NCBI RefSeq assembly: GCF_039566955.1
Contig: NZ_CP154796.1
Span: forward strand, 3,906,001 to 3,970,000
Origin: Micromonospora sp. DSM 45708
GTDB taxonomy: Bacteria > Actinomycetota > Actinomycetes > Mycobacteriales > Micromonosporaceae
Length of the DNA stretch: 64,000 nt
Direction of reading: 5' to 3'
Below, in pieces: positions 23,194 through 41,576 of this stretch. The translations under genes were made by a program, and so were the position numbers. The notes beneath the pieces are model-generated. The model had not been told where the DNA came from, did no database searches, and saw nothing but the letters and a program-made list of their open reading frames with translations. Each line of letters begins with the position of its first letter. Position 1 is the stretch's first letter.

Positions 23194-24000
23194 ATGATGG
23201 CCGTTCTGTCGATCGCGCAATTCGATACGGATACCCTGTTTCATGCGCCGTCTCCGCATCCTCACCTTGTCCCGACGGAGGATCCCGCGCGGGAAGACCT
23301 TCGCCGGTCACAAGCCGTCGGACTGGCGGCGCGGCAAGGGCCCGTCGTCGACGCGGGCGACCCGATGACCGACGTGGCGGCGCGTGCCCTCTGCCAGCGG
23401 TACGAGACCGGCTGGTCGGAGTTCGACAACGGCCTGGGCGCCGGCCGGCACCTGGCGGCGGTCAGTTGCGACCGGCCGTGTCGGACGACCGTGCGTTCGT
23501 CGCCCGGTTGCGGGCCACCGGCGGCCCGTCCCACGACCTGCTGGCTGCTCGACGCCCATCGGGTGCTGACCACCGACCAGCTCGCGCGGGCCACTGGCAC
23601 GCCGGTCCGCACGGTCCGCCACCGCCTGGACCGGCGGCGCACCGCCGGGCTGGTCGACGCGGTCCGGCCCGGAAGGGAGGCGGGGTCCACGCCGCGGCAC
23701 TGGTGGCTGCGCGTCGCCGGGGCCCGCCTGGTCGCCGCCCGGCTGGCCACCGCCCGATCCGGCTGGACCCCGCGTGACCAGGAGGACGGTGTCGACGAGG
23801 CCAGGACGACGGTTGCCGCAACATCGCACGGCCCCGGACCGGTGCCGTGTCCGTCCTGCTGGCGTCCTGCGGCCGGCATCAGCCGGCACGGCACCGTTCC
23901 GGGTCTACCGGTCGTCATCGTTGAGGTCGGCGGCGGACTACGCCCGCCGGTCAAGCCGGTGCGGGCAGACGGGCTGTGGGCGGCCTACCTACAACTGTGA
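23194..24000 (+). pseudogene. Replication-relaxation-like protein remnant
   Basis: The central part of this open frame (about 23545-23760) reads LLDAHRVLTTDQLARATGTP, followed by VRTVRHRLDRRRTAGLVDAV and RHWWLRVAGARLVA. This is the winged-helix pattern of actinobacterial replication-relaxation proteins found on mobile elements. Just upstream the matching codons (SDDRAFVARLRA) lie in a different frame. The N-terminal 100 and C-terminal 60 residues are low-complexity and not family-like. I read it as a frameshifted remnant, although an intact orphan gene is possible. Confidence 0.45.
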
Positions 24001-24009
24001 ATGCGGGCG

Positions 24010-24597
24010 CTACGCGGGTATCGGCGCTAGCCGCCAATGCTGCTTAGCGCCGCCCCAGCAGTCCCAGATCATCGCGCGGGCGGGGTTGCCGAGCCCGTCA
24101 CCGGTGATATCAAGGCACCTCTGGGTGAGCTGATTTCGGATCTCGTAGTAGCCGTTGCCAGCGTCAGCCAACCGCCAATGCTGCTTGGCGCCGCCCCAGC
24201 ATCCCCACTGCATGGCGGGAGCGCCTTGGTCGAGACCTGACCCGGCGACGTCAAGGCACCGCTGGCTGTTGAGCGGATGGAGCTCGTAGTAGCCGTTGCC
24301 GACGTTAAAGAGCCTCCACTTCTGGTGTGCCCCGCCCCAGCAGTTCGCCACGATCACCGGCACACCGTCGCCATTTCCGGCACCTTCGACGTCCAGGCAG
24401 CGCTGCGTGAGCTGAGACCGAATCTCGTAGTACTGGTCAGCGAGAATCGTTACCGGCCCCTCGCCCGCCCGGACAGCCCTCGGAGGGGCTGAGACGGCGG
24501 CGGTGGCTGAGGTGACCGACAGTAACGTCGCCAGAGCGACACCAGTGAGCAAGGTGCGGATGGACCGCCGTGCGTTTCGCCTCAGACGCGTGGACAT
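24010..24597 (-). CDS. Secreted ricin-type beta-trefoil lectin
   Basis: A 195-residue exported protein consisting of a signal peptide (about 1-37) and one ricin B-type beta-trefoil. Three repeats of about 47 residues each start YYEIRSQLTQRCLDV, YYELHPLNSQRCLDV or YYEIRNQLTQRCLDI and end in a QxW-type strand (HQKWRL, KQHWRL, KQHWRL). Galactose-binding Asp residues (CLD) and paired cysteines are conserved in all three. GGGAGGAAGC precedes the ATG at 24597. There is no catalytic domain, so it is a stand-alone sugar-binding protein. Confidence 0.88.
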   Translation of the reverse strand: MSTRLRRNARRSIRTLLTGVALATLLSVTSATAAVSAPPRAVRAGEGPVTILADQYYEIRSQLTQRCLDVEGAGNGDGVPVIVANCWGGAHQKWRLFNVGNGYYELHPLNSQRCLDVAGSGLDQGAPAMQWGCWGGAKQHWRLADAGNGYYEIRNQLTQRCLDITGDGLGNPARAMIWDCWGGAKQHWRLAPIPA

Positions 24598-26292: not shown

Positions 26293-26536
26293 GCTCACCG
26301 GCAGACGGAGGACTCGATTCTCTCGATCATGGCCGGGATGACGCCAGCCCGGGCCGACCACGGCAAGTGATAAGGCGCTACGCCGAATCCGTGAAGGTGG
26401 CTACCGAGCCATGCGCGGCACTCACCCGGCTCTATCCCACTATTCCCGCTTCATCTTTCCCGGCATCACCGCCACTACGTATGGCGGCGCCACCGCACTC
26501 GGGATCACCCCTTGGTGATCTAGCTGCTACCCAAGG

Positions 26537-26581
26537 TGTCGGTCTTGCGACAGCGCCGACCCCTTTTTGTCAGATCGACAA
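26537..26581. promoter_or_regulatory. Two palindromes upstream of the Nudix operon
   Basis: Two inverted repeats lie 18 to 62 bp before the Nudix start: TGTCG-GTCTTG-CGACA (26537-26552) and TTGTC-AGATC-GACAA (26567-26581). Both are built from a GTC/GAC core. They could be operators for the winged-helix domain of the first gene product (autoregulation). Confidence 0.45.
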
Positions 26582-26598
26582 GAAGCTATGGTCGAGCA

Positions 26599-27330
26599 GT
26601 GCCCGATGACACCTGGGAACCACCCCTGATCCTGCTCGCTGTCGACCTCGTGATCCTCACCTTGCGCGGTGGTTGTCTGAACCTGCTTCTCGTGCGGCGC
26701 GGTATTGAGCCGTTCATCGGGCGGGCAGCGCTGCCTGGTGGCTTCCTCGCCGATGAGCGCGAGGACATTCTCACCGCCGCTCGCCGGGAGCTGCGGGAGG
26801 AGGCGGGGCTCAACGACATCCCGCACCTGGAGCAGCTCGGTACATATGGCGACCCCGACCGTGACCCTCGTGGGCGCGTGGTCTCCGTCGCTCACCTCGC
26901 CGTCGTGCCGCGCCTTCCCGAGCCCGTCTCTGGAACCGACGCCGCAGCCGCTGAGTGGACGCCAGTCGACGACGTACTGGCCGCGCGAGTGCCACTCGCC
27001 TTCGACCACCTGCGCATCGTCATCGACGGGGTGGAGCGTGCCCGCTCCAAACTGGAGCACACGAGCTTGGCGACCGCCTTCTGCCCGGAGGTCTTCACCC
27101 TCACAGAGCTGCAGCAGGTCTACGAGGCCGTCTGGGGCACCCCGCTCGATCCCCGCAACTTTTACCGCAAAGTCCAGAGTACGAAGGGCTTCGTGGTCCC
27201 CGCCGGTCCGCCCCGCGCCACGGGCACCGGCCGTCCGGCCCGCGTCTACCGCGCTGGTCCGCGCCGGAACCTCTACCCGCCCATGATCCGCACGGTTCCG
27301 ACCGTCGCAGCCGGAGGAGACAAGAGATGA
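26599..27330 (+). CDS. Nudix hydrolase with C-terminal winged helix (NrtR-like)
   Basis: A 243-residue cytoplasmic protein. An N-terminal Nudix domain carries the Nudix box GGFLADEREDILTAARRELR followed by EEAGL (about residues 50-75), with the metal-binding glutamates intact. The C-terminus (about 165-225) has the winged-helix pattern FTLTELQQVYEAVWGTPLDP and NFYRKV, as in NrtR-type ADP-ribose-sensing regulators. GTG 26599 is taken as the start because the Nudix homology begins shortly after (LAVDLVILTL). Its stop overlaps the nucleosidase start (ATGA). It could sense or hydrolyse ADP-ribose or a related nucleotide and control the operon. Confidence 0.85.
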   Translation: MPDDTWEPPLILLAVDLVILTLRGGCLNLLLVRRGIEPFIGRAALPGGFLADEREDILTAARRELREEAGLNDIPHLEQLGTYGDPDRDPRGRVVSVAHLAVVPRLPEPVSGTDAAAAEWTPVDDVLAARVPLAFDHLRIVIDGVERARSKLEHTSLATAFCPEVFTLTELQQVYEAVWGTPLDPRNFYRKVQSTKGFVVPAGPPRATGTGRPARVYRAGPRRNLYPPMIRTVPTVAAGGDKR

Positions 27331-28478
27331 CCAAACCCGTGGTCGTGCTCACCGCACTGGACCTCGAGTACAACGCGGTCCGCGAACGTCTCACGAAAGT
27401 CGAACCACACGTACATCCGATGGGCACGCGCTTCGAGCGTGGCACCGTGACCGGAGGCTCCTGTGAGATCATTCTCGGCCTTGTCGGCAAGGGCAACCAC
27501 CCCTCCGCTGTCATCGCCGAGCGCGCCATGACCGAGTTCGACCCGGAAGCGGTCATCTTCGCCGGCGTGGCCGGGGCGCTCTGGCCCTCCGTCGGCCTCG
27601 GCGACGTCGTCGTGGCCACCCACGTGTACGCCTATCACGGCGGCACTAGCGAGAGCGATGCTTTCCGCACCCGGCCTCGCGTGTGGGAGATCCCCCATGC
27701 CTGTGATCAGCTCGCCCGGCATCTTGAGCGGGAGCGAGGCTGGGCGAGGGGCCTCGCCGGAAGAGTGCCCAAGGTGCGGTTTGGCCCAATCGCCGCCGGA
27801 GAGGTCGTCCTCGACTCGGCGTCCTCGCCCGAGGCGGCGCGCATCCGTGATCACTACAACGACGCGTTGGCGGTGGAGATGGAGTCGGCCGGGGTCGCCC
27901 AGGCCGCCCACCTGAACCGCTCCCTGCCGGCCGTCGTCGTCCGCGGCATCAGCGACCGTGCCGACGGGACCAAGGTCCACACCGACGGCGAGAACTGGCA
28001 GCCGCGTGCCGCCGCCAACGCCGCGGCCTTCGCCCTCGCGCTCGCCCAGGAACTCGGGGCCGAGTCTGGCTCCTCTCCTCGCCGTCCTCGAAAGGAAGCA
28101 GGTGGTGCATCGATGTCCGGCTCCGTCAGAAACGTCGCCAAGGGCAACGCTCACGTTGGATTCCAGGCACACACCGTTCACCACGCGACCGTCTACGGCG
28201 CGCCGGGCGGTGCGGGCGGGGAGACATTCCACGATCAGCTCGCGGAATTGCGCGCCTCGCTCCGTAAGTGCCATGAGGCGGGTGACGTGGACGCGGTCAC
28301 CTATCGCGCGGCGGAGCAGGAGATGGACGCAGCCGCCGCCGACGTACCTCCGGCCGACGACGAGGCACGGAGCCGCGCGACCACGGCCCTGCGGAAGCTG
28401 CGCGGCCTGCTGCTGGACTGGACGGACCTCGCCACGCGGGTCGCGGGGCTCATGGCGGCTCTGCGGGATCTGTCATGA
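27327..28478 (+). CDS. MTA/SAH-nucleosidase-like enzyme with C-terminal adaptor motif
   Basis: A 383-residue protein. Residues 1-245 are a PNP_UDP_1/MTAN-type nucleoside phosphorylase/nucleosidase. It has the active-site Glu of ALDLEYNAV (E14), GKGNHPSAV, FAGVAG, the MTAN motif VEMESAGVAQ (E186) and RGISDRADG (D210). After a linker comes a short motif NVAKGNAHVGFQAHTVHHAT (269-288) and a helical tail (300-383). The same motif recurs at the N-terminus of the next gene product. Such short shared motifs resemble the amyloid-like or adaptor motifs that link sensors to effectors in bacterial conflict systems. It overlaps both neighbours by four bases (ATGA). The enzyme may make or consume a nucleoside signal. 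Confidence 0.85.
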   Translation: MTKPVVVLTALDLEYNAVRERLTKVEPHVHPMGTRFERGTVTGGSCEIILGLVGKGNHPSAVIAERAMTEFDPEAVIFAGVAGALWPSVGLGDVVVATHVYAYHGGTSESDAFRTRPRVWEIPHACDQLARHLERERGWARGLAGRVPKVRFGPIAAGEVVLDSASSPEAARIRDHYNDALAVEMESAGVAQAAHLNRSLPAVVVRGISDRADGTKVHTDGENWQPRAAANAAAFALALAQELGAESGSSPRRPRKEAGGASMSGSVRNVAKGNAHVGFQAHTVHHATVYGAPGGAGGETFHDQLAELRASLRKCHEAGDVDAVTYRAAEQEMDAAAADVPPADDEARSRATTALRKLRGLLLDWTDLATRVAGLMAALRDLS

Positions 28479-30484
28479 GCGCCGGACCGCAGGAGAGGAC
28501 GTTCACCAACGTCGCTGACGGCGATGCCCGGGTGGGTTTCCAGGCCCAGGAGGTCCACATCGAGGGCGGATACCACGTCAGCGACGACGACCCGCCGGAG
28601 CGGCAGTTCGAGGTCGGCCTCCGCTACCTGGAGATCAGCGCCCCACCCGAGGCGAGAGAGCTGATCAGGAAAGCCATTGCCCGGGGCTACCAGAACTCCC
28701 GCGCCTACTTCTATCTGGCGCTTGCACTGTTGAGCGGCCGTACCCTGCAGAGCCTGACGGACCAGGAACTCGCGCAGCTGGCACACGTCCGCCGCTGGGC
28801 GGCGCAGCGCTGCGAAGATCCCTGGGCCCGGGGCATCAACGCCGTCGGTTCGCTGCTGGACTCGCTGCCGCAGACCACCGCGGAGACTCCCGACCCGGCC
28901 GCGATCGATGTGGTGGTCAAGGAATTCGAATCGCTCAACCCGCCCCTGCAGGAAAGCATCCTCAACCACCTCGAGGTTTTCTTGGCCGGCCCGCACCAGG
29001 ACTGGACCTGGCAGAAGACGTTCGCGACCGCCCGGCGGGACAGGACAGCCAACGGCCGGGCGGAGCGGGTCTGGAAGTTCTTCCAGCCCAAGCCGATCCC
29101 TCCCAGGCCGGTTCCGCCACATCCGATCCGTAAAGACGCGGGGAACTATCTACGCGCCCTCGGCGGCTCGGCACTGCTCCTCGTCACGGGCCTTGCGGTG
29201 GTCCAGTACGCCTGGGCCCACTCATGGCTCCGCTCAGCCGGCTATCTGATGGTGGCTCTTGGAGCCGTCGTCGTCGTGGTCCGGGCCGGCTTCACGATTA
29301 GGCTGGCTCGGCATCGACGCCGGGCGGCCGGCCAGCGTCTCACCCTCACACCCCGACGTGCTCCCGCACAGTCCGACCGGTTCGCCTCCGCGATGGACTC
29401 CTTATTCGACCGCTACTTCGGACGTTACCTGCCGCCTGACATGGCCCGGGAGACGTGGCTGGCGGAGACGGCGGGCATCCGGCAGACCCTCCGTAACGAG
29501 CTGGTCGAGCTGTACCGGGAGCAACCGGTCGACGCCAAGCGTGTCGCCTGGCTAGTGAGATTCCTCGCCAGCGACGTCAAGCGGCAGTGGCTCAGCGGTG
29601 AGCTGACCGCGGATCCCAAGGACTCCCGAGTGCCATCCTCGACGTGGACCGCCTTCGGCACCGCGGTGTTCGCCCTAGTGGTTACCGGCCCGCTGCTGCT
29701 CTGGCAGGCCCTCGCCGAGGCGCCGTTGACGACGGTGATCGCGACGGCCGGAATCGTGGCCGGGGCCCGGCTCGCCATCCAGGGCTGGTTCGCGATTCTC
29801 CTCGAGGGCCACCGCTACCGGGACGACCTAGACCGGGTCCGGCGCGACTACGAGGACCGGCGCGCGGCGTACGACAGGTGGGTTCGCAAGTTGGAATCGA
29901 AGCCGACCGACGCGGAGATGGCGCACTGGCTCGACTGCGACCGCAAGATCCTGGTCGAGGACACGCTGCGGCACTACCGCGTGGCCGCGCAGGACGTGAT
30001 AGCGCACGCCTTCATCGAGGCGCCCGTACCCGGGTGCAAGCGGGCCCGGGTCAGCAAGGGACCCTGGCGCTACTCGCGATACAAACTTCTCCTCTTCCTG
30101 CTCACCAAGGACGGCGTCCGCCAGGTCACGGTCACCCTCGACTTCGAGACCATGGAACTCGGCGATCAGCAACGCCTCACCTACCAGTACAACTCGGTCG
30201 TGGCGGCGCACGTCGTCGATGCCCGCAACGGCGAGAAGAAACTCTCCCTCACCCTGACGAATAATCCCCGGGACGAGCTGACGATCACCGGTGAGTGGCC
30301 AGGCATGCCAGAACTCGGCGACGACGACCGCATCGCCTCCCAGGTCTCGCTCGACGCCTCGGGCCTCGAACGCACCCTGCACGTGCTAGAGGGCATCGCA
30401 GCCGAAGGCAAGGAATGGATCACCCACGAGAACCGCCGAGAACGCGCCGGCCTCCGGCGGCTCGTCGCAGCGATGGAGAGCTGA
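28475..30484 (+). CDS. Four-TM membrane protein with N-terminal adaptor motif
   Basis: A 669-residue protein of unknown function. Residues 12-35 (NVADGDARVGFQAQEVHIEG...) match the nucleosidase motif at 13 of 24 positions. A TPR-like helical region follows (45-200), then a Pro-rich stretch, two membrane segments (about 227-247, 255-276), a cytoplasmic helical region (300-385) and two more membrane segments (about 391-411, 418-443). The C-terminal 220 residues are a soluble, mixed domain without a motif I know. ATG 28475 overlaps the nucleosidase stop. A membrane-acting effector recruited through the shared motif is the simplest reading. Confidence 0.7.
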   Translation: MSAGPQERTFTNVADGDARVGFQAQEVHIEGGYHVSDDDPPERQFEVGLRYLEISAPPEARELIRKAIARGYQNSRAYFYLALALLSGRTLQSLTDQELAQLAHVRRWAAQRCEDPWARGINAVGSLLDSLPQTTAETPDPAAIDVVVKEFESLNPPLQESILNHLEVFLAGPHQDWTWQKTFATARRDRTANGRAERVWKFFQPKPIPPRPVPPHPIRKDAGNYLRALGGSALLLVTGLAVVQYAWAHSWLRSAGYLMVALGAVVVVVRAGFTIRLARHRRRAAGQRLTLTPRRAPAQSDRFASAMDSLFDRYFGRYLPPDMARETWLAETAGIRQTLRNELVELYREQPVDAKRVAWLVRFLASDVKRQWLSGELTADPKDSRVPSSTWTAFGTAVFALVVTGPLLLWQALAEAPLTTVIATAGIVAGARLAIQGWFAILLEGHRYRDDLDRVRRDYEDRRAAYDRWVRKLESKPTDAEMAHWLDCDRKILVEDTLRHYRVAAQDVIAHAFIEAPVPGCKRARVSKGPWRYSRYKLLLFLLTKDGVRQVTVTLDFETMELGDQQRLTYQYNSVVAAHVVDARNGEKKLSLTLTNNPRDELTITGEWPGMPELGDDDRIASQVSLDASGLERTLHVLEGIAAEGKEWITHENRRERAGLRRLVAAMES

Positions 30485-31272: not shown

Positions 31273-32148
31273 ATGGGATGGTCAGAGGTTCCGGGTGGCT
31301 ACCAGGTCACCTACCGCGATCGCGACGTCGTCGCCCGTAACGCGAAGGGGCGCGAACTCCGCTCCCTGCCGGCGTCGTTGCGGGACGATCCGACAGTGGT
31401 CGGGCTGCGGCAGCTCACCGAGTGGCTGGCCCGGCACGAAACCCAGTGCCGCACGGACGTCGAGCGCTGGATGGTGCGCTCGCTGCCGGTGCCGGTCGCG
31501 GTCCTGACCGAGGTGTGGCCGGACGAGGCGTGGCGCGCCGCGCTCACCGACCTCGTCGTCGCGGTGCTCGACGACGACGGCCACTGGGACCCGGACGAGG
31601 TGGGTCTGCTGCGCGAGGTGGGCGACGGCCAGATCGGGCTGGTCAACCTCGACGGCGACACGGTCCGCCGGGCCGCCCGGCGGGTCGTCGTCCCGCACCC
31701 GGTCACCCTCGCCGACCTCGACGACCTGCGCGAGTTCGCCGCCGACCTCCAGGTCCGCCAGTCCGTCGACCAACTCTTCCGGCAGACCTGGGTCCGCGGA
31801 GCGGACGTCGACCCGAAGGCGACCCGGTTCGGTGACTACTCCGGCGGCAAGTACGACCAACTGCGTCACCTGACGGCCCGCGCGACGAAGCTCGGCTACC
31901 CGGTGCGCGGCGGCAACGCGGTGTGCCGGATCTTCGAGGACGGCCGCACCGTCGAGGCCCGGTCGTGGGTCGGCGCCGACGACCCGTACTACGAGACCGA
32001 GACCGGCGACCTCGTCTTCACCGACCGGCACGGCACCGCCCTGCCGCTGGGCGCGGTCGGCCCGGTGGCCTGGTCGGAAGGCACCCGGATGGCCGCCGCG
32101 CTGCACGCCGGCCGGGTCGTGGCGGAGCAGCAGGAGGAGGAGAAGTGA
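31273..32148 (+). CDS. DUF4132-family protein
   Basis: A 291-residue protein with the DUF4132 pattern: GYQVTYRDRDVVARNAKGRE, LRSLPASLRDDP, then LRQLTEWLARHETQCR and WPDEAWRAALTDLVVAVLDD. In E. coli this domain is the C-terminal part of MolR/YehI, which lies next to the yehL-M-P-Q genes; here it is a separate first gene of a matching operon. The ATG at 31273 opens the family homology. Its stop overlaps the GTG of the next gene. Molecular function unknown. Confidence 0.7.
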   Translation: MGWSEVPGGYQVTYRDRDVVARNAKGRELRSLPASLRDDPTVVGLRQLTEWLARHETQCRTDVERWMVRSLPVPVAVLTEVWPDEAWRAALTDLVVAVLDDDGHWDPDEVGLLREVGDGQIGLVNLDGDTVRRAARRVVVPHPVTLADLDDLREFAADLQVRQSVDQLFRQTWVRGADVDPKATRFGDYSGGKYDQLRHLTARATKLGYPVRGGNAVCRIFEDGRTVEARSWVGADDPYYETETGDLVFTDRHGTALPLGAVGPVAWSEGTRMAAALHAGRVVAEQQEEEK

Positions 32149-35100
32149 GCATCGACGCGATGGACCTGGTGGAAGCGGGGGCCGTGCTGCCGGCCGGCAC
32201 GGTGGTGCCCAAGGAGGACGTCGTCGACACCCTGACCGCCCGCCGGTACGCCCACCCGGTGCTCGCCGGGCGGGCTGTGGTCCGGCTGGTCAGCGGCGCG
32301 CTGGGCGAGGCCGAGGACCTCGCCATGGAGTTCCTGGGCTTCGCCCGCCCGCACCGGGTGACCCCGGTCGGTGTGGTCCGCCAACAGGCGCTGGGCTTCC
32401 CGGCGTGGGCGCTGGTCCACGACCCGGCCAACGGGCACCACGCGCTTGCCCTGGTCAAGGAGATCGAGCGACTGGCCCGGACGGCCAAGTCCCGGATCGG
32501 CCCGGCGAAGGACGGCTTCAACGCCCTCGGCGAGCGGCTGGCCCGGTCGGTGCCGCACTTCCTGCCGACGTTCTACGAGGAGGCCGGCCGGGCGTTCCTG
32601 GCCGCCGACAGCGTGACGTACGCGGCGACCATGTTCGGCAAGGCACGCGAGGCGGAACGGGCCTACGGGCTGACCATCGACGAGGACCGCCAGCACGCCG
32701 TGTTCCTGGAGTTCGCCCTGGCCGGAGCGTTGACCGCGAAGGCGCTCTCCGGACACGCCCGAGACCTGGCGACGCGGTGTGCCCCGGCGGACGCGTACGA
32801 GATGTTCCTGCGGCTGTGCGTGGAGCGCACCCTGGGTGGCCTCCCGCCGTACGCGGCGATGCACACCGACCTGCGCCGGCTGGCCCGTAAGGCGGGCCTC
32901 GACCCGATCGCCGCCGACGAACAGGTGCTCGGCCAACTGCTGGCCGCCCCGGCGCTCAACCGGGCGCCCGAGGCGTTCTGGACGGCCTACCGGAAGCCGT
33001 TGGCCCGGCTCGCCGCCGCCGATCCAGCCCTGCGCGGCCGGCTGCTCGGCCTCACCCCGCAGCACTGCGGCGACGACGTCTGGCTGGGCGTGCTGGAGGA
33101 GGCCGGCGCCACGGCCGCGCTGACCGAGCCGGCGGGTGGCGTCCCCGCCGGGGCCGACGCGCCGGACGGACCCGCCGGCTGGCTGCGCCGCATCGACGGG
33201 CACCGCGAGCGGCGTTCCTGGCGGGCACGCAAGCGGCACCCCGGGCTGCTGGCGCTGGTCGAGCGGATGGCCGGGCGGCTGAAGTCCGACGGTGTGCCGG
33301 TCGCGCTCTGCCGCGACCACGACGCGGTCGACCTCGACCTGCTCGACCTCTGCCTGGCGCTGGGCGTGCCGGTCGCGGACCCGGCCGACACCGCCCGGTA
33401 CTGGGTGGACCAGTGGCTGTCGGACGAGACGCCCGGCCGGCGTGACCTGGTGGCCACCGCCGCCGACCCGCGCTTCCTGCCGGCGTTGATGAAGGGCGTG
33501 GAGGGCCGGCTGCGGACCGGCTCGCGCGACCAGCGCGAAACGACGGCGCGGGTGCGCCAGATCATCGCGGCGCCCGGGCTCCGCACGGCCCTGCGGCGGT
33601 GGCTGGACACCCTCGCCGACGCGGTGGGCCGGCAGGGGCTGCCGGCGATCGACCACCAACTCGACCGGGTCGGCACCGTTGCCTGCCCGGCCGGGTTCGC
33701 GGTCAACCCCGACGCGGTACGCCGGCTCGTCGCGCACGACCTCGGCCCGATTCTCGGCCGTACCCTGCGGACCGGTCTGCTCGACGAGTACGGCTGGCCG
33801 GCCCTGGACGCCGCCGCCGATCGCCTCGGCGAGCCGGGCGAGGACCTACGGCTCATCGGGCAGTGGCCCTACCTGCTGCTGGTCCGCGGCGACCTGGTGC
33901 TGGTGGTCGGGCCGGACGGGGTGGAGCACGAGCACCTGATGCGGATCCCGGCCGGGGAGCGCCGCTACCTGTGGCGGCAGGTGCTGCGCTACGTCGACGG
34001 CCAACTGCTGGTCTGCTGGGACCGGGGCCCGGACCGGGCCGCCTACTGGAGCGGCGCGCCGGACGACGTCTTCGTCATCGACGACGACGCCTTCAACCCG
34101 TACGCCGACCTGTCGTTGCCGCTGCCCGGCGGCGGGCGCACCTTCGGTCGGCGTCCGCTGCGGGTGGGTGACCGGGGGGAGCGGACCGGCGGTCGGGTGA
34201 TCAGCGACGGCAGCACCTACTGGGTGCGCGCCCGCGAGCAGAACCGGGGGTGGCACGAGTACGACCCGGCGACCGGCGAGCCCGGGCGGTCCTCCCTGCC
34301 GGCGTTCTTCGAGGACGGCGCCGTCGACGGCCAACCGCTGGACGCCGACCTGTGCTGGCTGCGCCCCACCGAGTCGGCCGACAGCCCGCTGGGCCGGGCC
34401 GACGGGCTCGCCGGGTGGCGGGTCCGGCGCGGCCCCGACGGCGGCTGGGCCGGCGAAGCAGTGAACGGCCGGTCCTTCGCGCTGCCGGCCGGTGTCGGCC
34501 CGGACGGGAGCCTGGCCGCAGCGGTGCGATTCCCGGGCGCGACCGCCACCCACGGTCTGCTGCGCAGCAGCCGGGGCAACCGTGGCTCGCTGCTGGTCTG
34601 CGCCGACGACGGCTTCCAACTCGGGTGGTACCCGCTGGGCGGTGAACGCTCTGCCTCCGCCGCCGGCACCGGCCTGGTGCCGCCGCCGGAGTTCTGGCAC
34701 TTCCTGCGCCTCCGCGACGAGGCCGGCTCGGCGGCGCTGCGAGCCGTCACCGACGCGCAGGCCGGGGCGCTGCTGGCCGAGGCGGCCGGGCTGGACACCA
34801 CGCAGGTGCGCGCCCTGGTCGGCCGGCACCTCCCGCAGCTCACCGCCCCCGCTCTCGTCGCCGGGGTCGCCGGCCTCGTCGAGCAGGCGGCCGGGCAGGC
34901 GGCGCGGCTGCGCGCGTTGGCCGACGTGCTGGCGGGCCGGCCGGGCAGCGCCTCGCCGGCCGGGGATCGGAGTCCGGCCGGTGCCGAGGAGACGGCCGCC
35001 GACCGGCTCCTCGTCGAGGGGCTGTCCGGGCTCATCCAATACTGCTACAGCAAGGGGGACAGCGCCCAGCGGCTCATCGCGCGGGCGGGCGCCGCGCTCA

Positions 35101-36902
35101 CCGGCACCGGGCCGGTCCCGACCGCCCCGATCGAACTGGACGGCGACCTCGACTGGTTCGACGCGCTGGGGCTGCTGCCCGCCGCGATGTACCGGGCGGC
35201 GGGACCGGTGACCAGGCCCGAGGTACGCGAGGCGCTGCTGACACTGCTGGAGACCTGCGCCCGGTCCGGGCTCGTCGCTCCGGGCAGCCGGGTACGGCGG
35301 GCCACCCTGGTCGCCGACGGCACTCGACCGCTCGACCACGTCAGGGGGCAGGTGTTCACCGCCGGCGGCCGGCGGCTGCTGGTGCTCGGGGTGGACACCG
35401 ACGACCGTGAGGTCGACGTGCTCGACTGGGCGTCCACCGGACGGTTCGACGCGGTGCCGGGTTTCCGGATCACCGGGGAGCAGATCATGCGGACCGGTGC
35501 GGTGACGCCGGAGCGGATCGACTCCTTCGTCCGGCTGGTCCGCGGGAACGGCCCGGCGCCCTGGCGCGCGGATCGGGCGCGGGCGCTGTCCGAGGAGGCG
35601 GGCATGAGCCACGCCGAGGCTGTGCTGCTGCTGGCGGGCCTGCCCCGGGTCGCGTGGGAGAAGGCCGAGGGCGCGCCGGTGCGTACCACGTTGGGGTTGC
35701 CCGACCCGGCGGCCGCGGCGGTGGCGGCGCGGTTCTGGGGCGACGACCGGCGCGAGGGCGTGGCCGAGGTGCTGGGGCGGCTGGTGCCCGACGACCCGGC
35801 GGCGCTCTGGGCCGACGGGCCGCGGCACGACCTGATCGTCGAGGAGTGGATCCGGCGGCACGGCCGACGTCGGCCGGTCTCCGACGAATTGATCGTCCGG
35901 GTGGACCGGGCCGACGTGGCCAGTCCGTTGTCGGCCTCCGAGGTGATCCACGGGGTGGCGAATCCGACCACCTGCCGCTGGCTGGCCGGCACCGCCCCCG
36001 GGATCGACGACCACGAGGTGCTGGTCGCGTTGACCAAGACGCTGCCGTGGCTGGCGTACGACCTGTCCGCCGACGATCCGATCCGGTCGGCGCTGCCGGT
36101 CGCCGCCCGGCTGGCCCGGCAGCGGCTGACCGATCCCGACTTCACCATCCCGGTCGGTCGCCTCGACGAGCCCAAAATCCCGGCGCTCGCCGCCGCGCTC
36201 GGCACTCCGGCGACCACCGGCCCCGCCGGGACCGGCATCGGCCCGGTGGTCATCCCGCCGGACACCGGTTGGCACCAGGTGCGGCTGCGCCCGGCCGGGC
36301 TGCGGGGGGTGGACGATCCGGTGTTCGCGGTGCTGCGGGCCCGCCTCGACGGGGCCGACGAGTCGGTGCTCGCGGCGCTGCGGGCGCTGCTCGGTGACCA
36401 GCTCACCGAGGCGGTGTCCGACACCGTCGCGCCGACGGCCGAAGGCTTCGCGCAGGACCCGACCCGGTCCGCGCCGGAGCTGGTCGCGACGGTCGGCGCC
36501 ACGCTCGGGCTGAGCGCCGACGCCGCCGCGCTCTACCTGCAACTGCTCGCCCTGCCCGATCCCACCGACCGCAACGTCGCCCGGTGGACCGGGTGGAAGC
36601 CGGCGCGGCTCAAGGCGGCGCGGGCCGAGCTGGCCGCGACCCCACACGTCGTGGTCGCGAAGCGGTCCCGGGCCGGGCGGTCCCTGTTCCTGCCCGGTGG
36701 CTGGTTGGCGCTGAAGGCGCCGCTGCTGCCGCTGGAGCGGTGGAAGCTGCCGCTGCTGATCGGGGGCGAGGGCGGCGTGACCGCCCTGGGCATCGTCATC
36801 CCGATCGCTCCCGCGCCCCGGCTGTTCGCGCTCGCCTGGGACCGGCTGCACGCCGGTGACGCACCCCGATTCGATGATCTCGTCACGGAAAGGCGCCGAT
36901 GA
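32145..36902 (+). CDS. Very large (1585 aa) uncharacterised protein of the MoxR-VWA operon
   Basis: A soluble 1585-residue protein without signal or membrane segments. It is Ala/Leu/Arg/Asp-rich and largely helical, with a possible beta-rich middle (residues 560-840, FGRRPLRVGDRGERTGGRVI) and a C-terminal helical part. No motif known to me is visible. GTG 32145 overlaps the DUF4132 stop (GTGA), and its stop overlaps the MoxR start (ATGA), so expression is locked to both neighbours. Large antisense frames over it are GC-codon shadows. It probably acts as a scaffold or substrate of the ATPase, which is inference from position only. Confidence 0.75.
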   Translation: MSIDAMDLVEAGAVLPAGTVVPKEDVVDTLTARRYAHPVLAGRAVVRLVSGALGEAEDLAMEFLGFARPHRVTPVGVVRQQALGFPAWALVHDPANGHHALALVKEIERLARTAKSRIGPAKDGFNALGERLARSVPHFLPTFYEEAGRAFLAADSVTYAATMFGKAREAERAYGLTIDEDRQHAVFLEFALAGALTAKALSGHARDLATRCAPADAYEMFLRLCVERTLGGLPPYAAMHTDLRRLARKAGLDPIAADEQVLGQLLAAPALNRAPEAFWTAYRKPLARLAAADPALRGRLLGLTPQHCGDDVWLGVLEEAGATAALTEPAGGVPAGADAPDGPAGWLRRIDGHRERRSWRARKRHPGLLALVERMAGRLKSDGVPVALCRDHDAVDLDLLDLCLALGVPVADPADTARYWVDQWLSDETPGRRDLVATAADPRFLPALMKGVEGRLRTGSRDQRETTARVRQIIAAPGLRTALRRWLDTLADAVGRQGLPAIDHQLDRVGTVACPAGFAVNPDAVRRLVAHDLGPILGRTLRTGLLDEYGWPALDAAADRLGEPGEDLRLIGQWPYLLLVRGDLVLVVGPDGVEHEHLMRIPAGERRYLWRQVLRYVDGQLLVCWDRGPDRAAYWSGAPDDVFVIDDDAFNPYADLSLPLPGGGRTFGRRPLRVGDRGERTGGRVISDGSTYWVRAREQNRGWHEYDPATGEPGRSSLPAFFEDGAVDGQPLDADLCWLRPTESADSPLGRADGLAGWRVRRGPDGGWAGEAVNGRSFALPAGVGPDGSLAAAVRFPGATATHGLLRSSRGNRGSLLVCADDGFQLGWYPLGGERSASAAGTGLVPPPEFWHFLRLRDEAGSAALRAVTDAQAGALLAEAAGLDTTQVRALVGRHLPQLTAPALVAGVAGLVEQAAGQAARLRALADVLAGRPGSASPAGDRSPAGAEETAADRLLVEGLSGLIQYCYSKGDSAQRLIARAGAALTGTGPVPTAPIELDGDLDWFDALGLLPAAMYRAAGPVTRPEVREALLTLLETCARSGLVAPGSRVRRATLVADGTRPLDHVRGQVFTAGGRRLLVLGVDTDDREVDVLDWASTGRFDAVPGFRITGEQIMRTGAVTPERIDSFVRLVRGNGPAPWRADRARALSEEAGMSHAEAVLLLAGLPRVAWEKAEGAPVRTTLGLPDPAAAAVAARFWGDDRREGVAEVLGRLVPDDPAALWADGPRHDLIVEEWIRRHGRRRPVSDELIVRVDRADVASPLSASEVIHGVANPTTCRWLAGTAPGIDDHEVLVALTKTLPWLAYDLSADDPIRSALPVAARLARQRLTDPDFTIPVGRLDEPKIPALAAALGTPATTGPAGTGIGPVVIPPDTGWHQVRLRPAGLRGVDDPVFAVLRARLDGADESVLAALRALLGDQLTEAVSDTVAPTAEGFAQDPTRSAPELVATVGATLGLSADAAALYLQLLALPDPTDRNVARWTGWKPARLKAARAELAATPHVVVAKRSRAGRSLFLPGGWLALKAPLLPLERWKLPLLIGGEGGVTALGIVIPIAPAPRLFALAWDRLHAGDAPRFDDLVTERRR

Positions 36903-38059
36903 CCACGACCACCCCGGCGGCTCGGCAGGTCCACCCCGCCGAGCACGCCCACGCCACCGAGCTGGAGTTCCTCGCCGCGTACGACGACGGGCCCCGGCCC
37001 CCGGGCTGGCGGCTCACCCCCCGTGCGGTCGTCACGTTCATCGCCGGCAGCGCCGAGGCCGAGCTTGAGCTGCCGAAGGAGGCCCGCCGCGACACCCTGC
37101 CCCGCAAGCTGGCCGTCGCCGCCAAGTTCGTCGGCGAGCGGGCCCTGGTCGAGCGCTGTGTCGTCACCCTGGCCGGAGAGCGGGGACTGCTGCTCGTCGG
37201 CGAGCCGGGCACCGCGAAGTCGATGCTGTCGGAGCTGTTGTCCGCGGCGGTCTGCGGCACCAGCGAGCTGGTCGTGCAGGGCACCGCGGGCACCACCGAG
37301 GACCAGCTCCGGTACGGCTGGAACTACGCGCTGCTGCTCGCGCACGGGCCCAGCGCCGCCGCGCTGGTGCCGTCGCCGATCATGACCGCGATGCGTACCG
37401 GCGCGGTGGCCCGGGTGGAGGAGATCACCCGCTGCCTGCCGGAGGTCCAGGACGCGCTGGTGTCCATCCTGTCCGACCGGAGGATCGCGGTGCCGGAGCT
37501 GTCCGGCACCGTCGAGGCCACCGTTCCCGCCGCGCCCGGCTTCACGCTGATCGCGACCGCCAACCTCCGGGACCGGGGGGTGTCGGAGATGTCCGCCGCG
37601 CTCAAGCGCCGGTTCAACTTCGAGACCGTCGGCCCGATCCCCGACCTCGCGCAGGAGACCACGCTGGTGCGGCGGCAGGCCCGGGCGGCGCTGGACCGGG
37701 TACGCACCCCGTTCGCGGTCGACGACGCCGTGCTGGAGGCGCTGGTCACCGCGTTCCGGGACCTGCGGGCCGGACGGTCGGTCGAGGGTTGGGAGGTGGA
37801 GCGGCCCTCGACGGTGATGAGCACCGCCGAGGCGGTGGCGGTCGCGACGTCGCTGGCCCTGGCGGCGGCATACTTCCCCGGCGACCGGGACGTGTTGTCG
37901 CTGTTGCCGGGGCACCTGCTGGGCGTGGTCCGCAAGGACGACCCCGCCGACGGGGCCAAGCTGCTCGGCTACTGGGACGGCGCGGTCCGGCGTCGGGCCG
38001 AGGACGGTGCGCGACTGTGGCGGCGACTCTGGGAACTGCGTGATGTCCTCGCCGACTGA
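36899..38059 (+). CDS. MoxR-type AAA+ ATPase (YehL-like)
   Basis: A 386-residue AAA+ ATPase of the MoxR class. Walker A GEPGTAKS (101-108), Walker B VARVEEITR (170-178, with VEE instead of the usual DEI), sensor-1 LIATANLRDRG (near 205-215) and the arginine finger region ALKRRFNF (near 225). It belongs with the E. coli YehL-like ATPases that pair with VWA and SWIM proteins. It likely remodels or loads metal onto its VWA partner, the role proposed for other MoxR-VWA pairs. It overlaps the next gene by 17 bases. Confidence 0.88.
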   Translation: MTTTTPAARQVHPAEHAHATELEFLAAYDDGPRPPGWRLTPRAVVTFIAGSAEAELELPKEARRDTLPRKLAVAAKFVGERALVERCVVTLAGERGLLLVGEPGTAKSMLSELLSAAVCGTSELVVQGTAGTTEDQLRYGWNYALLLAHGPSAAALVPSPIMTAMRTGAVARVEEITRCLPEVQDALVSILSDRRIAVPELSGTVEATVPAAPGFTLIATANLRDRGVSEMSAALKRRFNFETVGPIPDLAQETTLVRRQARAALDRVRTPFAVDDAVLEALVTAFRDLRAGRSVEGWEVERPSTVMSTAEAVAVATSLALAAAYFPGDRDVLSLLPGHLLGVVRKDDPADGAKLLGYWDGAVRRRAEDGARLWRRLWELRDVLAD

Positions 38060-41000
38060 GCCGCCGGACCCGGCCGAGCCGCGGGACCCGGCCGCCGCCG
38101 GGCAGCTCGATCCGGTGGTCGCGGTCACCGAGCTGGCCGGATGCCGCCGGCCGTACCTGATCGGGGTGCGGCACCACTCGCCCGCGCTGGCGGTGGTGCT
38201 TCCGCGACTGCTGGCCGAGTTCCGGCCCGAGGTGCTGCTCCTCGAACTCCCACCGGAGCTGGGCGAGTGGCTGCCGTGGCTCGCCGATCCGACCACGATC
38301 GCACCGGTGGCGCTGGCCGGCGTGGTCGGCGACGGTGGGGAGCCGGCGTTCTACCCGTTCGCCGACTTCTCCCCGGAGTTCGTCGCGGTGCGCTGGGCCG
38401 CCCGCAACGGGGTCCCGGTCGTACCGTGCGACCTGCCCCTGACGGACGCGGCGTGGCGGGAGCGCCACCCCGGGCCGGGTGGCGCCCCGGCGACGGGCCG
38501 GTCGTTCGCCGACGCGCTGCGAGCGGCGGGCACCGGGCGTCCCGACGAGGACCTGTGGGACCGGTCCGTCGAGGCACGAGCGCCCGGCGCGAGCCCGGAG
38601 GCGGTACGCCGCGCGGCGCTGGCGGTCGGCTGGGCGCTGCGCGCCGATGCCGAGCGAGGGGCCGGGGTGTCCCCTCTCGACCTGCGGCGGGAGGCGCGGA
38701 TGCGGCAGTGCCTGGCCGAGGCGGGGCAACAACGGGTCGCCGCCCTGGTCGGCGCCTTCCACGCCCCGGCGCTGCTGACCGGGGCGGGCGCACCCCCGGC
38801 GGGCCCGGCCAGCCCGCCGTCGGTGGTGACCTCGCTGGTGCCGTACACGTTCGGGCTGCTGGACGCCCGGTCGGGCTATCCGGCCGGGATCCGCGATCCG
38901 CAGTGGCAGCAGTCGGTCCTCGCGGCCGGCGGTGACCCCACCGCCGTCGAGTCGGCGACGGTGGCCGCCGTGGTGGCCGTCTGTGCGGCGATCCGCCGGG
39001 CCGGTCATCCGGCCGGTCCGGCCGAGGCCCGGGAGACGGCCCGGCTCGCGCTCGACCTGGCCCGACTGCGCGGCCTGCCCGCGCCGGGCCGCGGTGAGCT
39101 GGTCGAGGCGATGCAGAGCGTGCTGGCCCACGGCGAGGTGCTGGGCCGCGGCCGGGTGGTGGCCGGGGCGATGGAGCAGGTTCTCGTCGGCGACCGGCGG
39201 GGCGCGTTGCCCCCCGGTGCTCCCCGCTCCGGGCTGGCCCTGGTGGTGCGGGATCTGTTGGCCGGGCTGCGGCTGCCGGGTGCCGGCGACCCGGCCAGAG
39301 AGCTGCGGCTGGACCCGCTCCGGTCCGACTTGGACCGACGGCGCGAGATCACCCTGCACCGGCTCGCGGTCTGTGGCGTCGCCTACGCCGAACCGGTCGT
39401 CGGTGCGGGGGTCGGCGGTGTCGACGCGATCACCTCGCGCTGGCGGGTGGGCTGGTCGCCCCGGACCGAGGCGACGATCGAGGTGGCCGGCCTGCGCGGA
39501 GTGACCCTCGCCCAGGCCGCCGAGGGCGCCCTGGTGGAGCGGCGGCGGCGGGAACGGGCCGAGGAGGGCCCGACCGTGGCCGCGGTGATCGGCGGTCTGG
39601 AGGCCGCCGCGCGGTGCGACCTGACCGGGCTGACCGTGCGTCGGCTCACCGAGTTGGCGGTCACGGTGCCGGCGGAGGGCACCCTCAGCGAACTGATCGC
39701 CGCGTTGGCGCTGCTCGACCGGCTGCGCCTCGGCCAGCTTCCGGGTGGGTCCGGGCTGCCGGCGGGCGAGCTGGGCACGGTCGCCGAGGCGCTGGAGAGC
39801 GCGGCGGTCCGGCAGGTCGACGGGCTGGCCGGTGCGGAGGACGTGGCCGACGCGGAGGCGCTGGCCGCGCTCGCCCAGCGGGCCGACGCCGCCGGGGTGG
39901 TGCTGCGGCTGGCCGACTGCCTGGCCCGGCTCACCGCCCAGGGCACGCCGCTGATGGCCGCCGCCGCCGGGGCGGTGCGGGTCCTGCTGGGGCTGGGCGA
40001 GCCGGCCGCCTTCGGGCGGCGCATCGCGTCCTGGGTGGACACCGCGACCACGCCTACCGCGCGGCGGCAACTCCAGGGCCACCTGACCGGGCTGCTGGTC
40101 GTCGCCGAGCCGCTGCTGCGGGGCAGCGGCGAGGTGCTGGACGGCCTCCTCGACCGGGTCGAGGCGCTGCCCGACGAGGAGTTCCTCACCCGGCTGCCGG
40201 CGTTGCGCGCCGGCTTCCACGTGGTCAGCCCGGCCGGCCGGGATCGCCTGCTGGACGTGGTCCGGGCGCGGCTGGGCGGGGCCGATCCGGCCACCGACAT
40301 CGCCGTGCTCGACGATCCGGACGCCCTGCTGGTCCGGCTGCTCGCCGACCGGGCGGGCCGGTCGGCACTGGTCCGTCAGGGCTTCCTCACCCCCGAGCCG
40401 GCGGAGCCGCCGACGGACCGGCCGGTCGACGCTCCTGGCGCCACGCCGCCGCCCGCCCGCCGGGCTCCGACCGACGCGCTCGCGACGGTCGACCGGTGGC
40501 GGCTCGTGCTCGGTCGGGAAACCAGCCGGACCGGGTCGGGCGCACGGCGGTACGCCACCGCCCTCGACGAGCTGTACGGGGCCGGCCGGGGCGAGGGGGC
40601 CGGCGTGGAGGCGGCCGGTCGCGTCGGCCGGGAGGCGTCGTTCCCCGGCGTACGGGAGTGGGCGGAGGAGCTGGCGGTCCTGTTCGGGCCCGGTATCCGC
40701 GAGGAGGTGTTGGCCCGAGCGGTCGAGGCAGGCCGGCTGGACGCGGCGGTCGAGCTCGATCCGGCGGCGGTGCGTCCCTCCGTCGAGTTGCTCCGCGACG
40801 TGCTCACCCTCGCCGGTGGGCTGCCGGAGTCCACCGTGGCTCGGCTGCGACCGCTGGTGACCCGCCTCGTCGAGGAGCTGACCAGGGAGCTGGCCTCCCG
40901 GTTGCGGCCGGCGCTGACCGGGCTGACCACCCCCCGCCCCAGCTACCGACCGGGCGGGCCGCTGGACCTCCCTCGGACGCTGCGGGCCAACCTGGCCACC

Positions 41001-41576
41001 AGCCGCCGCGACGAGCAGGGCCGGGTCGTGCTGGTGCCCGAGCGGCCGGTGTTCCGGACCCGGGCCCGCCGGGGGGTGGACTGGCGGCTGGTGCTCGTCG
41101 TCGACGTCTCCGGCTCGATGGAGGAGTCGGTGATCTGGTCGGCGCTCACCGCCGCCGTGCTCGCCGGTGTACCGGCGCTCACCACCCACTTCGTGGCCTT
41201 CTCCACCGAGGTGGTGGACCTGTCCGAGCGGGTCGACGATCCGCTGGCCCTGCTGCTGGAGGTCAGCGTCGGCGGGGGTACGCACATCGCGGCCGGGTTG
41301 CGTCACGCCCGGTCACTGGTCACCGTCCCGCGACGGACCATGGTGGTCGTCGTCAGCGACTTCGAGGAGGGATTTCCGATGGGTGGGCTGCTGGCCGAAA
41401 CCCGGGCGCTGGTGGAGGCGGGCTGTACCGTGCTGGGCTGCGCCAGCCTGGACGACACCGGGCGACCCCGGTACTCGGTCTCGGCGGCCGGTCAGCTGGT
41501 GGCGGCGGGGATGCCGATCGCCGCGTTGAGCCCGTTGGAGCTGGCCCGGTGGGTCGGGGAGCAGGTGCGTGGATGA
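38043..41576 (+). CDS. DUF5682-VWA fusion (YehM/YehP-like)
   Basis: A 1177-residue cytoplasmic protein. The N-terminal part (about 40-300) is DUF5682-like: LIGVRHHSPALAVVLPRLLA, then FRPEVLLLELPPEL and VVPCDLPLTDAAW. A long helical middle follows. Residues about 1010-1177 are a von Willebrand A domain with a complete metal-adhesion site: DVSGSM (from 1021), GGGTH and VVSDFEEGF. In E. coli these are two proteins, YehM and YehP; here they are fused. ATG 38043 lies inside the end of the MoxR gene, and the stop overlaps the SWIM gene start. Confidence 0.82.
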   Translation: MSSPTEPPDPAEPRDPAAAGQLDPVVAVTELAGCRRPYLIGVRHHSPALAVVLPRLLAEFRPEVLLLELPPELGEWLPWLADPTTIAPVALAGVVGDGGEPAFYPFADFSPEFVAVRWAARNGVPVVPCDLPLTDAAWRERHPGPGGAPATGRSFADALRAAGTGRPDEDLWDRSVEARAPGASPEAVRRAALAVGWALRADAERGAGVSPLDLRREARMRQCLAEAGQQRVAALVGAFHAPALLTGAGAPPAGPASPPSVVTSLVPYTFGLLDARSGYPAGIRDPQWQQSVLAAGGDPTAVESATVAAVVAVCAAIRRAGHPAGPAEARETARLALDLARLRGLPAPGRGELVEAMQSVLAHGEVLGRGRVVAGAMEQVLVGDRRGALPPGAPRSGLALVVRDLLAGLRLPGAGDPARELRLDPLRSDLDRRREITLHRLAVCGVAYAEPVVGAGVGGVDAITSRWRVGWSPRTEATIEVAGLRGVTLAQAAEGALVERRRRERAEEGPTVAAVIGGLEAAARCDLTGLTVRRLTELAVTVPAEGTLSELIAALALLDRLRLGQLPGGSGLPAGELGTVAEALESAAVRQVDGLAGAEDVADAEALAALAQRADAAGVVLRLADCLARLTAQGTPLMAAAAGAVRVLLGLGEPAAFGRRIASWVDTATTPTARRQLQGHLTGLLVVAEPLLRGSGEVLDGLLDRVEALPDEEFLTRLPALRAGFHVVSPAGRDRLLDVVRARLGGADPATDIAVLDDPDALLVRLLADRAGRSALVRQGFLTPEPAEPPTDRPVDAPGATPPPARRAPTDALATVDRWRLVLGRETSRTGSGARRYATALDELYGAGRGEGAGVEAAGRVGREASFPGVREWAEELAVLFGPGIREEVLARAVEAGRLDAAVELDPAAVRPSVELLRDVLTLAGGLPESTVARLRPLVTRLVEELTRELASRLRPALTGLTTPRPSYRPGGPLDLPRTLRANLATSRRDEQGRVVLVPERPVFRTRARRGVDWRLVLVVDVSGSMEESVIWSALTAAVLAGVPALTTHFVAFSTEVVDLSERVDDPLALLLEVSVGGGTHIAAGLRHARSLVTVPRRTMVVVVSDFEEGFPMGGLLAETRALVEAGCTVLGCASLDDTGRPRYSVSAAGQLVAAGMPIAALSPLELARWVGEQVRG

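Follow-up and report, generated by a model that had tools for sequence, protein, structure and literature searches.

A recurrent three-gene operon of actinomycetes in which an MTAN-like nucleosidase and a predicted membrane protein share a co-varying motif downstream of an NrtR-type regulator

The stretch of Micromonospora sp. DSM 45708 DNA analysed here (the window; 64,000 nucleotides, contig NZ_CP154796.1, positions 3,906,001 to 3,970,000 of a single-contig 7.0 Mb genome) carries an operon of three genes, all on the plus strand. Gene 1 (26599–27330) encodes a Nudix protein with an NrtR-type winged helix that is predicted to be an autorepressor, gene 2 (27327–28478) an MTAN-type nucleosidase with a C-terminal extension, and gene 3 (28475–30484, complete) a protein of 669 aa with four predicted transmembrane (TM) segments. 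Genes 2 and 3 have a short motif in common. As described in an initial annotation of this DNA, successive genes overlap by ATGA, at 27327–27330 and 28475–28478. The same annotation started gene 1 at 26537; GTG 26599 is most likely the start instead, because a conserved operator ends 13 nt, and a −10-like TATGGT (26587–26592, plus strand) 6 nt, before this codon.

The three genes are one conserved unit. A gene 3 alignment, used to scan genome contigs, gave 142 confirmed relatives, and the loci studied are the best 80 of them; they were chosen by gene 3, and a gene 2 without gene 3 could not appear among them. Genes 1, 2 and 3 follow one another in this order on one strand in 78 of the 80 loci, which answers the question, raised in the initial annotation, of whether they occur together elsewhere. 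The exceptions are a contig that ends inside gene 2 (L005) and a truncated gene 3 remnant (L072); the count includes a locus with genes 1 and 2 in one open frame (L010, whose spacing value of −1119 is an artefact of this) and two with gene 1 matches in two frames (L043 and L051). The overlap between genes 2 and 3 is of 4 nt in 67/78 operons, and the two genes touch or overlap in 74/78. One operon, otherwise intact, has a 414-aa transposase-like gene (named by eye) between gene 2 and gene 3 (L060:5428–6669, minus strand).

The operon is found in Micromonospora, Nonomuraea, Streptosporangium, Actinomadura, Microbispora, Lentzea, Saccharopolyspora, Amycolatopsis and other actinomycete genera, and the closest named relatives of gene 3 are in Micromonospora. 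Among 7991 candidates scored, gene 3 had 90 relatives at E 1e-3. Its distribution is patchy: a gene 3 match was present in 22 of 121 genomes of the host genus, which on reading of the rows comprise 12 full-length copies, 7 split or truncated copies, some of which may be contig ends, and 3 distant relatives; 1 of the 12 full-length genomes has a second, broken copy. Split copies were seen in two genus genomes, G085 and G106 (L104, L105). The tail of gene 2 was detected in 10/197 genomes of the class, and the profile of the distant gene 3 relatives in 15/246, namely the same 10 and five more; with gene 2 region 251–383 as query, only 9 close orthologues were found. The host genome contains one gene 3. 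This scattered and often broken distribution would suit a costly conflict module.

The domain assignment originally made for gene 1 was confirmed by Pfam (NUDIX, 3.7e-17; NrtR_WHD, 5.5e-17). Its PDB relatives are 3gz5/3gz6 (1.1e-29) and AraR 5bs6 (2.8e-28), and it scores 122 bits against the NF050029 NtrR model, whose equivalog cut-off is 400. In the Nudix box, R63, E67 and E68 are present in all of 79 rows and E64 in 97%. Mycobacterial NrtR is described as an auto-repressor that is released from DNA by ADP-ribose, and as having lost hydrolase activity together with a changed Nudix motif (PMC6800001). From this known behaviour we infer that gene 1 represses its own operon until it binds an ADP-ribose-like ligand. 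Because R63, E67 and E68 are invariant and E64 nearly so, the protein may in addition hydrolyse that ligand.

The predicted operator is the palindrome CTTTTTGTC-N5-GACAAGAAG at 26563–26585 (no strand), with the core TGTC-N5-GACA at 26568–26580. Of the 78 regions preceding gene 1 that were compared (77 loci plus the window), 76 contain this core; in 69 of these its position relative to the gene 1 start is −31 or −32, and the two misses (L044, L077) have degenerate sites at the same place. In 200-nt draws from the same loci it occurred in 1/1560, a count that includes draws less than 600 nt from the gene 1 start, which were not scored. The 7.0 Mb genome has a single copy of the extended site TTNTGTCN5GACANNAA, the one at this operon. 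The initial annotation had noted two palindromes before the operon; the one at 26563–26585 proved to be conserved, and the other, at 26502–26520, was not among the 25 commonest dyads listed. TANNNT is found at −12 or −13 in 75/78 upstream regions, and gene 1 transcripts therefore probably start at the start codon and are leaderless. Gene 1 resembles NrtR and AraR regulators in its two domains and in the conserved palindrome, a predicted site, at its own promoter. It differs from them in that the operon lacks NAD or arabinose genes, and the site described for mycobacterial NrtR is GTTTTCGA-N7-TCGAAAAC (PMC6800001) versus TGTC-N5-GACA here. Control of NAD metabolism, as expected of an NrtR, was not seen: genes 2 and 3 follow gene 1, and the extended operator has its one genomic site.

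The nucleosidase domain of gene 2 (residues 1–250, 27327–28076) matches PNP_UDP_1 at 8.7e-35. Residues E14, E186 and D210, reported as intact in the initial annotation, are identical in 79/79 aligned operons; we take them to be the E/E/D catalytic residues of MTAN. Judged by its sequence, gene 2 has both the MTAN fold and these residues; it remains below the MTAN equivalog cut-offs (100.3 bits versus 169 for NF004079; 58.2 versus 73.8 for TIGR01704). In the predicted structure the nucleosidase is followed by a disordered linker that carries the motif and by a four-helix bundle absent from the initial annotation (residues 301–383, 28227–28478; helices 301–317, 323–338, 345–361 and 366–381; block means of the predicted local distance difference test (pLDDT) 71–97). 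No solved structure covering this bundle was found among the matches listed. That gene 2 is a housekeeping MTAN only was considered and rejected: it stands with genes 1 and 3 in 78/80 loci of the sample drawn by gene 3, scores below the equivalog cut-offs and has a conserved extra tail, the sole look from the gene 2 side being the class scan with that tail (10/197 genomes). The host has four PF01048 proteins, that is, three others besides gene 2, and this too speaks against gene 2 alone being a housekeeping enzyme, the outcome that the initial annotation had named as fatal to its proposal.

Gene 3 is predicted to be a membrane protein. As stated initially, it is 669 aa long with four TM segments: hydropathy peaks lie at 225–243, 257–275, 396–414 and 425–443. 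They form two hairpins in the AlphaFold2 model (mean pLDDT 79.0), the first at residues 222–287 (29138–29335; helices 222–249 and 251–287) and the second at residues 388–444 (29636–29806; helices 388–415 and 417–473). Its description as a protein with no known domain was only partly right: no Pfam family was over the cut-off, but the model contains TPR-like helical repeats (residues 41–203, 28595–29083) and a C-terminal PH-like domain (residues 508–644, 29996–30406). Pfam, at E up to 1, found no NLR domain (NACHT or NB-ARC) in genes 1 to 3.

The short motif that the initial annotation had seen in both proteins is real and extends over 23 residues around a near-invariant Q, roughly N.A.G.A.VG.QA..V.G.V. 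In gene 2 it is NVAKGNAHVGFQAHTVHHATVYG (residues 269–291, 28131–28199), in the linker that is predicted to be disordered (pLDDT <50 over 255–269 and 274–297). In gene 3 it is NVADGDARVGFQAQEVHIEGGYH (residues 12–34, 28508–28576), mostly disordered in the model (pLDDT <50 for 6–24) with a short strand at 26–32; N12, A14, A18 and V20 are conserved in at least 90%, and Q23 in all, of 85 rows. Searched against the host genome, a profile of the gene 2 motif plus tail had only two matches at E ≤1, gene 2 itself (E 2e-39) and the N-terminus of gene 3 (E 0.002), with 150 of the 220 candidates scored. Over the open reading frames of L001–L085, the motif profile matched, beyond the gene 2 and gene 3 rows, twice in L082, where the operon is on the minus strand, and once in L053, where the match is the gene 3 start in another frame.

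The two motifs of an operon co-vary. A motif pair was obtained from 78 of 79 rows (none from L053), and in these 78 operons cognate motifs shared 10.65 of 23 residues, compared with 8.75 when partners were shuffled (0/5000 shuffles). The excess identity, 0.083 at shift 0, did not exceed 0.023 at any other shift up to 6. Co-variation persisted within the four clades of the gene 2 tree (10.66 versus 9.93, 0/5000; 77 rows, L027 lying outside the four clades), the single clades giving 14, 310, 1 and 48 of 5000. When four rows with a mis-extracted motif (L044, L081, L075, L065) were dropped, the values were 11.15 versus 10.47 (0/5000, 73 rows), and 19, 324, 9 and 126 of 5000 for the single clades. 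For the same 73 rows, random pairs of 23-column windows from the protein bodies reached at most 0.016 in 2000 draws, versus 0.030 for the motif. The residue before Q is V in both motifs of 44 operons, I in both of 13, F in both of 2 and M in both of one, and V at this place has changed 7 times on the tree in gene 2 and 14 times in gene 3. Several lineage-specific changes are matched: M/M in L067, TTGIQA with an added residue in both L054 motifs, SPV in both L071 motifs, and the F/F pair in the window and L002. Genes 2 and 3 thus look physically coupled by the motif that they share.

Distant relatives of gene 3 also carry a motif at the N-terminus. Those of L101–L103 (442–452 aa) belong to the gene 3 family by profile comparison (99.5%, E 4.8e-23, over the TPR-like and PH-like parts) and adjoin a protein of 121–122 aa. 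The first 32 residues of relatives of this type (11 rows) scored a mean of 44.1 against the archaeal BASS3-like peptide AEB69175, versus 16.5 when shuffled (0/1000), and the small neighbours (3 rows) scored 31.0 versus 16.2 (0/1000). Three other peptides were reached by 207, 393 and 699 of 1000 shuffles for the gene 3 relatives, and by 69, 833 and 573 for the small neighbours. AEB69175 is reported to give amyloid-like Fourier-transform infrared and Congo Red signals (PMC8086366). Both proteins of the two-gene pair (L101:5339–7032, L102:5482–7172, L103:5070–6763) begin with the BASS3-like motif. The pair is like the operon in having a gene 3 homologue with an N-terminal motif, TPR-like and PH-like regions, and a small neighbour with the same motif; it differs in that no Nudix and no nucleosidase gene adjoins, and in that the BASS3-like motif is clear. 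The gene 2 helix bundle compared with the 122-aa partner gave 43.6% only, and in the family the 122-aa protein was found in 1/150 genomes, as a weak match (E 4.1e-4). The genes near this pair are, we assume, cytochrome c biogenesis-like. By sequence, then, the gene 3 receptor family seems broader than this operon, because its distant members carry a BASS3-like motif in the same place.

A second, outlying subtype (L143, L144, L147) consists of a Nudix regulator, a nucleosidase that lacks the helix bundle and ends in a motif, and gene 3. Each of the three operons has its own motif variant, on both the gene 2 and the gene 3 side. Scored with the main-subtype profile, the gene 2 strings of L143, L144 and L147 were reached by 3, 0 and 0 of 500 shuffles; on the gene 3 side the L143 motif was a plain miss with no score, and the other two were reached by 9 and 0. 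For the six strings together, the shuffles reaching the score, of 1000, were 275 for BASS3, 13 for AEB69175, 443 for PUASM, 691 for sigma and 130 for RDW70414. In the family of G241 this gene 3 was found in 11/35 genomes at E 1e-10, only G241, G461 and G137 having at least 40% identity over nearly the full length. The dyad of these distant operons comes after gene 1 and before genes 2 and 3 (L144, 2517; L147, 8600; L143, 2320 and 2374). In L143 (2320–2864) a second, partial Nudix frame (2466–2864), with two TGTC-N5-GACA dyads in front, lies between gene 1 and gene 2. The outlying operons and the L101–L103 pair together suggest that one place in the gene 3 family is occupied by a BASS3-like motif in one branch and by the window motif in another, each common to the neighbouring gene.

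Three consecutive genes at L097:2–2648 may form another motif-coupled set without an NLR. One product (470 aa, incomplete at the locus start) has IIGNQAIG close to its C-terminal end; another, of 133 aa, combines VGNQAVG with a helical tail (DUF5955, 32.3 bits); the third is trypsin-like. Profile comparison of the gene 2 helix bundle with the 133-aa protein gave 95.3%.

The reading that we tentatively prefer, and whose probability we place just short of even, is that of a self-contained signalling or abortive-response module in which an autorepressor controls a motif-coupled nucleosidase, with a membrane partner in the place of an NLR. Gene 1 would repress the operon at the TGTC-N5-GACA site over its promoter and let go on binding an ADP-ribose-like nucleotide. 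Gene 3 would be a membrane-anchored receptor or seed; a cue read by its TPR-like and/or PH-like part would lead it to expose or cluster the disordered motif at its N-terminus. The counterpart in gene 2 would then assemble with this motif, by homotypic templating of the RHIM/BASS kind, and the assembly would concentrate and switch on the nucleosidase domains; their cleavage of the N-glycosidic bond of an adenine nucleotide or nucleoside would lead to a growth stop or to cell death. Gene 3 would hold the position that an NLR has in known amyloid signalosomes. A more specific form of this proposal, which we hold with slightly greater reserve, is that the operon encodes an NLR-independent signalosome of amyloid type, the first of bacteria, in which the TPR-like/4TM/PH-like membrane protein seeds the nucleosidase via a private motif pair that drifts with lineage like a lock and its key, and an NrtR-type protein, sensing ADP-ribose, acts at a leaderless promoter to arm the operon. 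The initial annotation had proposed three separate steps, with gene 1 sensing, gene 2 processing and gene 3 acting at the membrane; this division of labour misses the probable coupling of genes 2 and 3 by the motif and the likely role of gene 1 as repressor of its own operon.

Several results weigh against this proposal. One of the four clades is not significant alone (310/5000), the residue before Q is unequal between the two motifs in 18/78 operons, and an independent-pairs test that takes the tree into account could draw on 3 pairs (7 in the reverse direction), too few to reach significance. The nearest solved relatives of gene 2 are named MTANs and futalosine-type nucleosidases, not ATP nucleosidases, and the Pfam scan at E up to 1 found PF01048 only, with no SLOG domain of the kind present in ATP-cleaving PNP effectors. 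Nor are defence genes enriched beside the operon: 55 PADLOC families were counted for 140 neighbour genes, versus 179 for 128 control genes (E 1e-5), the control being small, with one stretch that holds a Dnd/Ssp island, and thus weak evidence either way. The neighbours were picked from 291, for the most part one on either side of each operon and omitting L015, L061, L062 and L074, and the control genes were 128 of 129 on 15 arbitrary stretches, of which L111 gave none. A Pfam tally of the 140 neighbours was mixed, the commonest family being found in 4/140. The location in defence islands about which the initial annotation asked was not borne out, and the candidate conflict or signalling system put forward initially survives as a recurrent three-gene unit whose role, supported neither by PADLOC nor by the neighbours, we infer.

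The likeness of the window motif to BASS3 is also nominal only. One BASS3 peptide was reached by 101/2000 shuffles (gene 2 motif 18/1000, gene 3 motif 74/1000), and a sigma-motif peptide did as well (56/2000); AEB69175 gave 184/1000 for the gene 2 and 17/1000 for the gene 3 motif, in eight tests in all. With all 156 motifs, the shuffles reaching the score, of 300, were 6 for BASS3, 16 for AEB69175, 78 for PUASM, 7 for sigma and 96 for the non-aggregating RDW70414; the likeness is thus not specific to BASS3, since the sigma peptide scores like it. Membership of BASS3 is not supported by score, and for these reasons we do not name the window motif a BASS3 member; by its arrangement and apparent kinship it is called RHIM/BASS-like.

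The operon might instead serve the metabolic response to stress, gene 1 sensing ADP-ribose, gene 2 salvaging or clearing methylthioadenosine (MTA), S-adenosylhomocysteine (SAH) or a breakdown product of NAD, and gene 3 anchoring gene 2 by a scaffold motif, without killing. This would agree with the closeness of gene 1 to NrtR and AraR regulators and of gene 2 to MTAN, with the full conservation of the active-site residues and with neighbours that are not defence-rich. We nevertheless consider it unlikely: on reading of the rows, a gene 3 like that of the window is found in only 19/121 genus genomes, 7 of them with broken copies, and the gene 2 tail in 10/197 genomes of the class, fewer than a salvage pathway would lead one to expect; besides gene 2 the host has three PF01048 proteins; and salvage needs no coupled, diversifying motif pair.

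Somewhat less probable again is that gene 3 acts as the effector by forming a pore or disturbing the membrane, and that gene 2 makes or destroys a nucleotide signal that gates it, the motif only keeping both together. Four hydrophobic segments are compatible with this, and SLATT-type 2TM partners of PNPase and TIR domains are described as proposed pore-formers in conflict systems (PMC7159879). However, Pfam shows no SLATT domain in gene 3 and no ligand-binding domain was recognised; a 27-row alignment has no invariant column at 208–302 or 373–446, the TM stretches, whereas the N-terminal motif and the C-terminal part hold many. Gene conversion between the two motif copies, rather than interaction, would also produce co-variation and is possible for motifs 308 nt apart in one operon, the more so as the tree-aware pair test has no power, but it is improbable because the excess identity is confined to equivalent positions and because the gene 2 and gene 3 versions of the motif still differ in consensus, a difference that conversion would be expected to remove.

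The proposed module can be compared with known systems. Like the bacterial NLR amyloid signalosomes with BASS motifs, it has a short motif common to adjacent, overlapping genes, N-terminal in one partner and behind the effector domain in the other, and is found in filamentous actinobacteria. It differs in that no NLR is present and the N-terminal motif is on a TPR-like, 4TM, PH-like membrane protein, in having a nucleosidase instead of a Bell domain, in a motif that is not significantly BASS3 by sequence, and in the NrtR-type regulator inside the operon. The nearest architectural precedent is given by fungal PNP_UDP effectors, described as having a motif C-terminal to PF01048 and NLR partners (PMC9815663). 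These resemble the operon in the order of PF01048 and motif (there PUASM), with the partner copy at the N-terminus of the neighbouring gene's protein; they differ in pairing with a NACHT NLR, the window motif is not matched by the single PUASM peptide compared with it, and the gene 2 protein of the window continues beyond the motif into a four-helix bundle.

ATP-degrading PNP effectors are described in Detocs and other systems (PMC11249213, PMC10952713), the Cap17/Detocs ATP nucleosidase consisting of a PNP domain and a TIR/PNP-associating SLOG domain (PMC10952713), and PNPase domains are reported in other conflict systems (PMC8195603, PMC7159879). A PNP-superfamily protein in a multi-gene system is common to Detocs/Cap17 and to the operon, which differs in having neither a SLOG domain nor two-component parts, and in that the nearest solved relatives of gene 2 are MTANs. 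PADLOC matched gene 2 by two unrelated models only, a generic PN-superfamily effector and PDC-M60C, and genes 1 and 3 by none at E up to 1; no single known system was matched. All components have relatives, and their combination, a Nudix/PNP/TPR-TM operon with a shared motif in which a membrane protein substitutes for the NLR, was absent from the literature matches listed, in a search that reached few subscription papers. In conclusion, the operon is real, with ordinary parts and unusual wiring.

Whether fungi and bacteria have signalling amyloids in NLR-independent pathways is raised as an open question in a review (PMC7889193). The operon offers a small recurrent test case, with two proteins that carry one motif each, a known enzyme fold and a regulator with a candidate operator. 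Were the preferred reading true, membrane proteins could replace NLRs as the seed of assembly, and NrtR nucleotide sensing would be tied to nucleotide or nucleoside cleavage of the PNP family in one switch.

Other genes flank the operon in the window. Upstream of it are a frame for a ricin-type beta-trefoil lectin (24013–24597, minus strand) and a Replic_Relax-like frame (23194–23997, plus strand). Directly downstream, at 31273–43465 on the plus strand, genes encode a DUF4132 protein, a 1585-aa protein without Pfam match, a MoxR-type AAA ATPase (AAA_5), a DUF5682-VWA_CoxE protein and a 631-aa protein without match; this gene row is a separate system, of the MoxR-vWA type.

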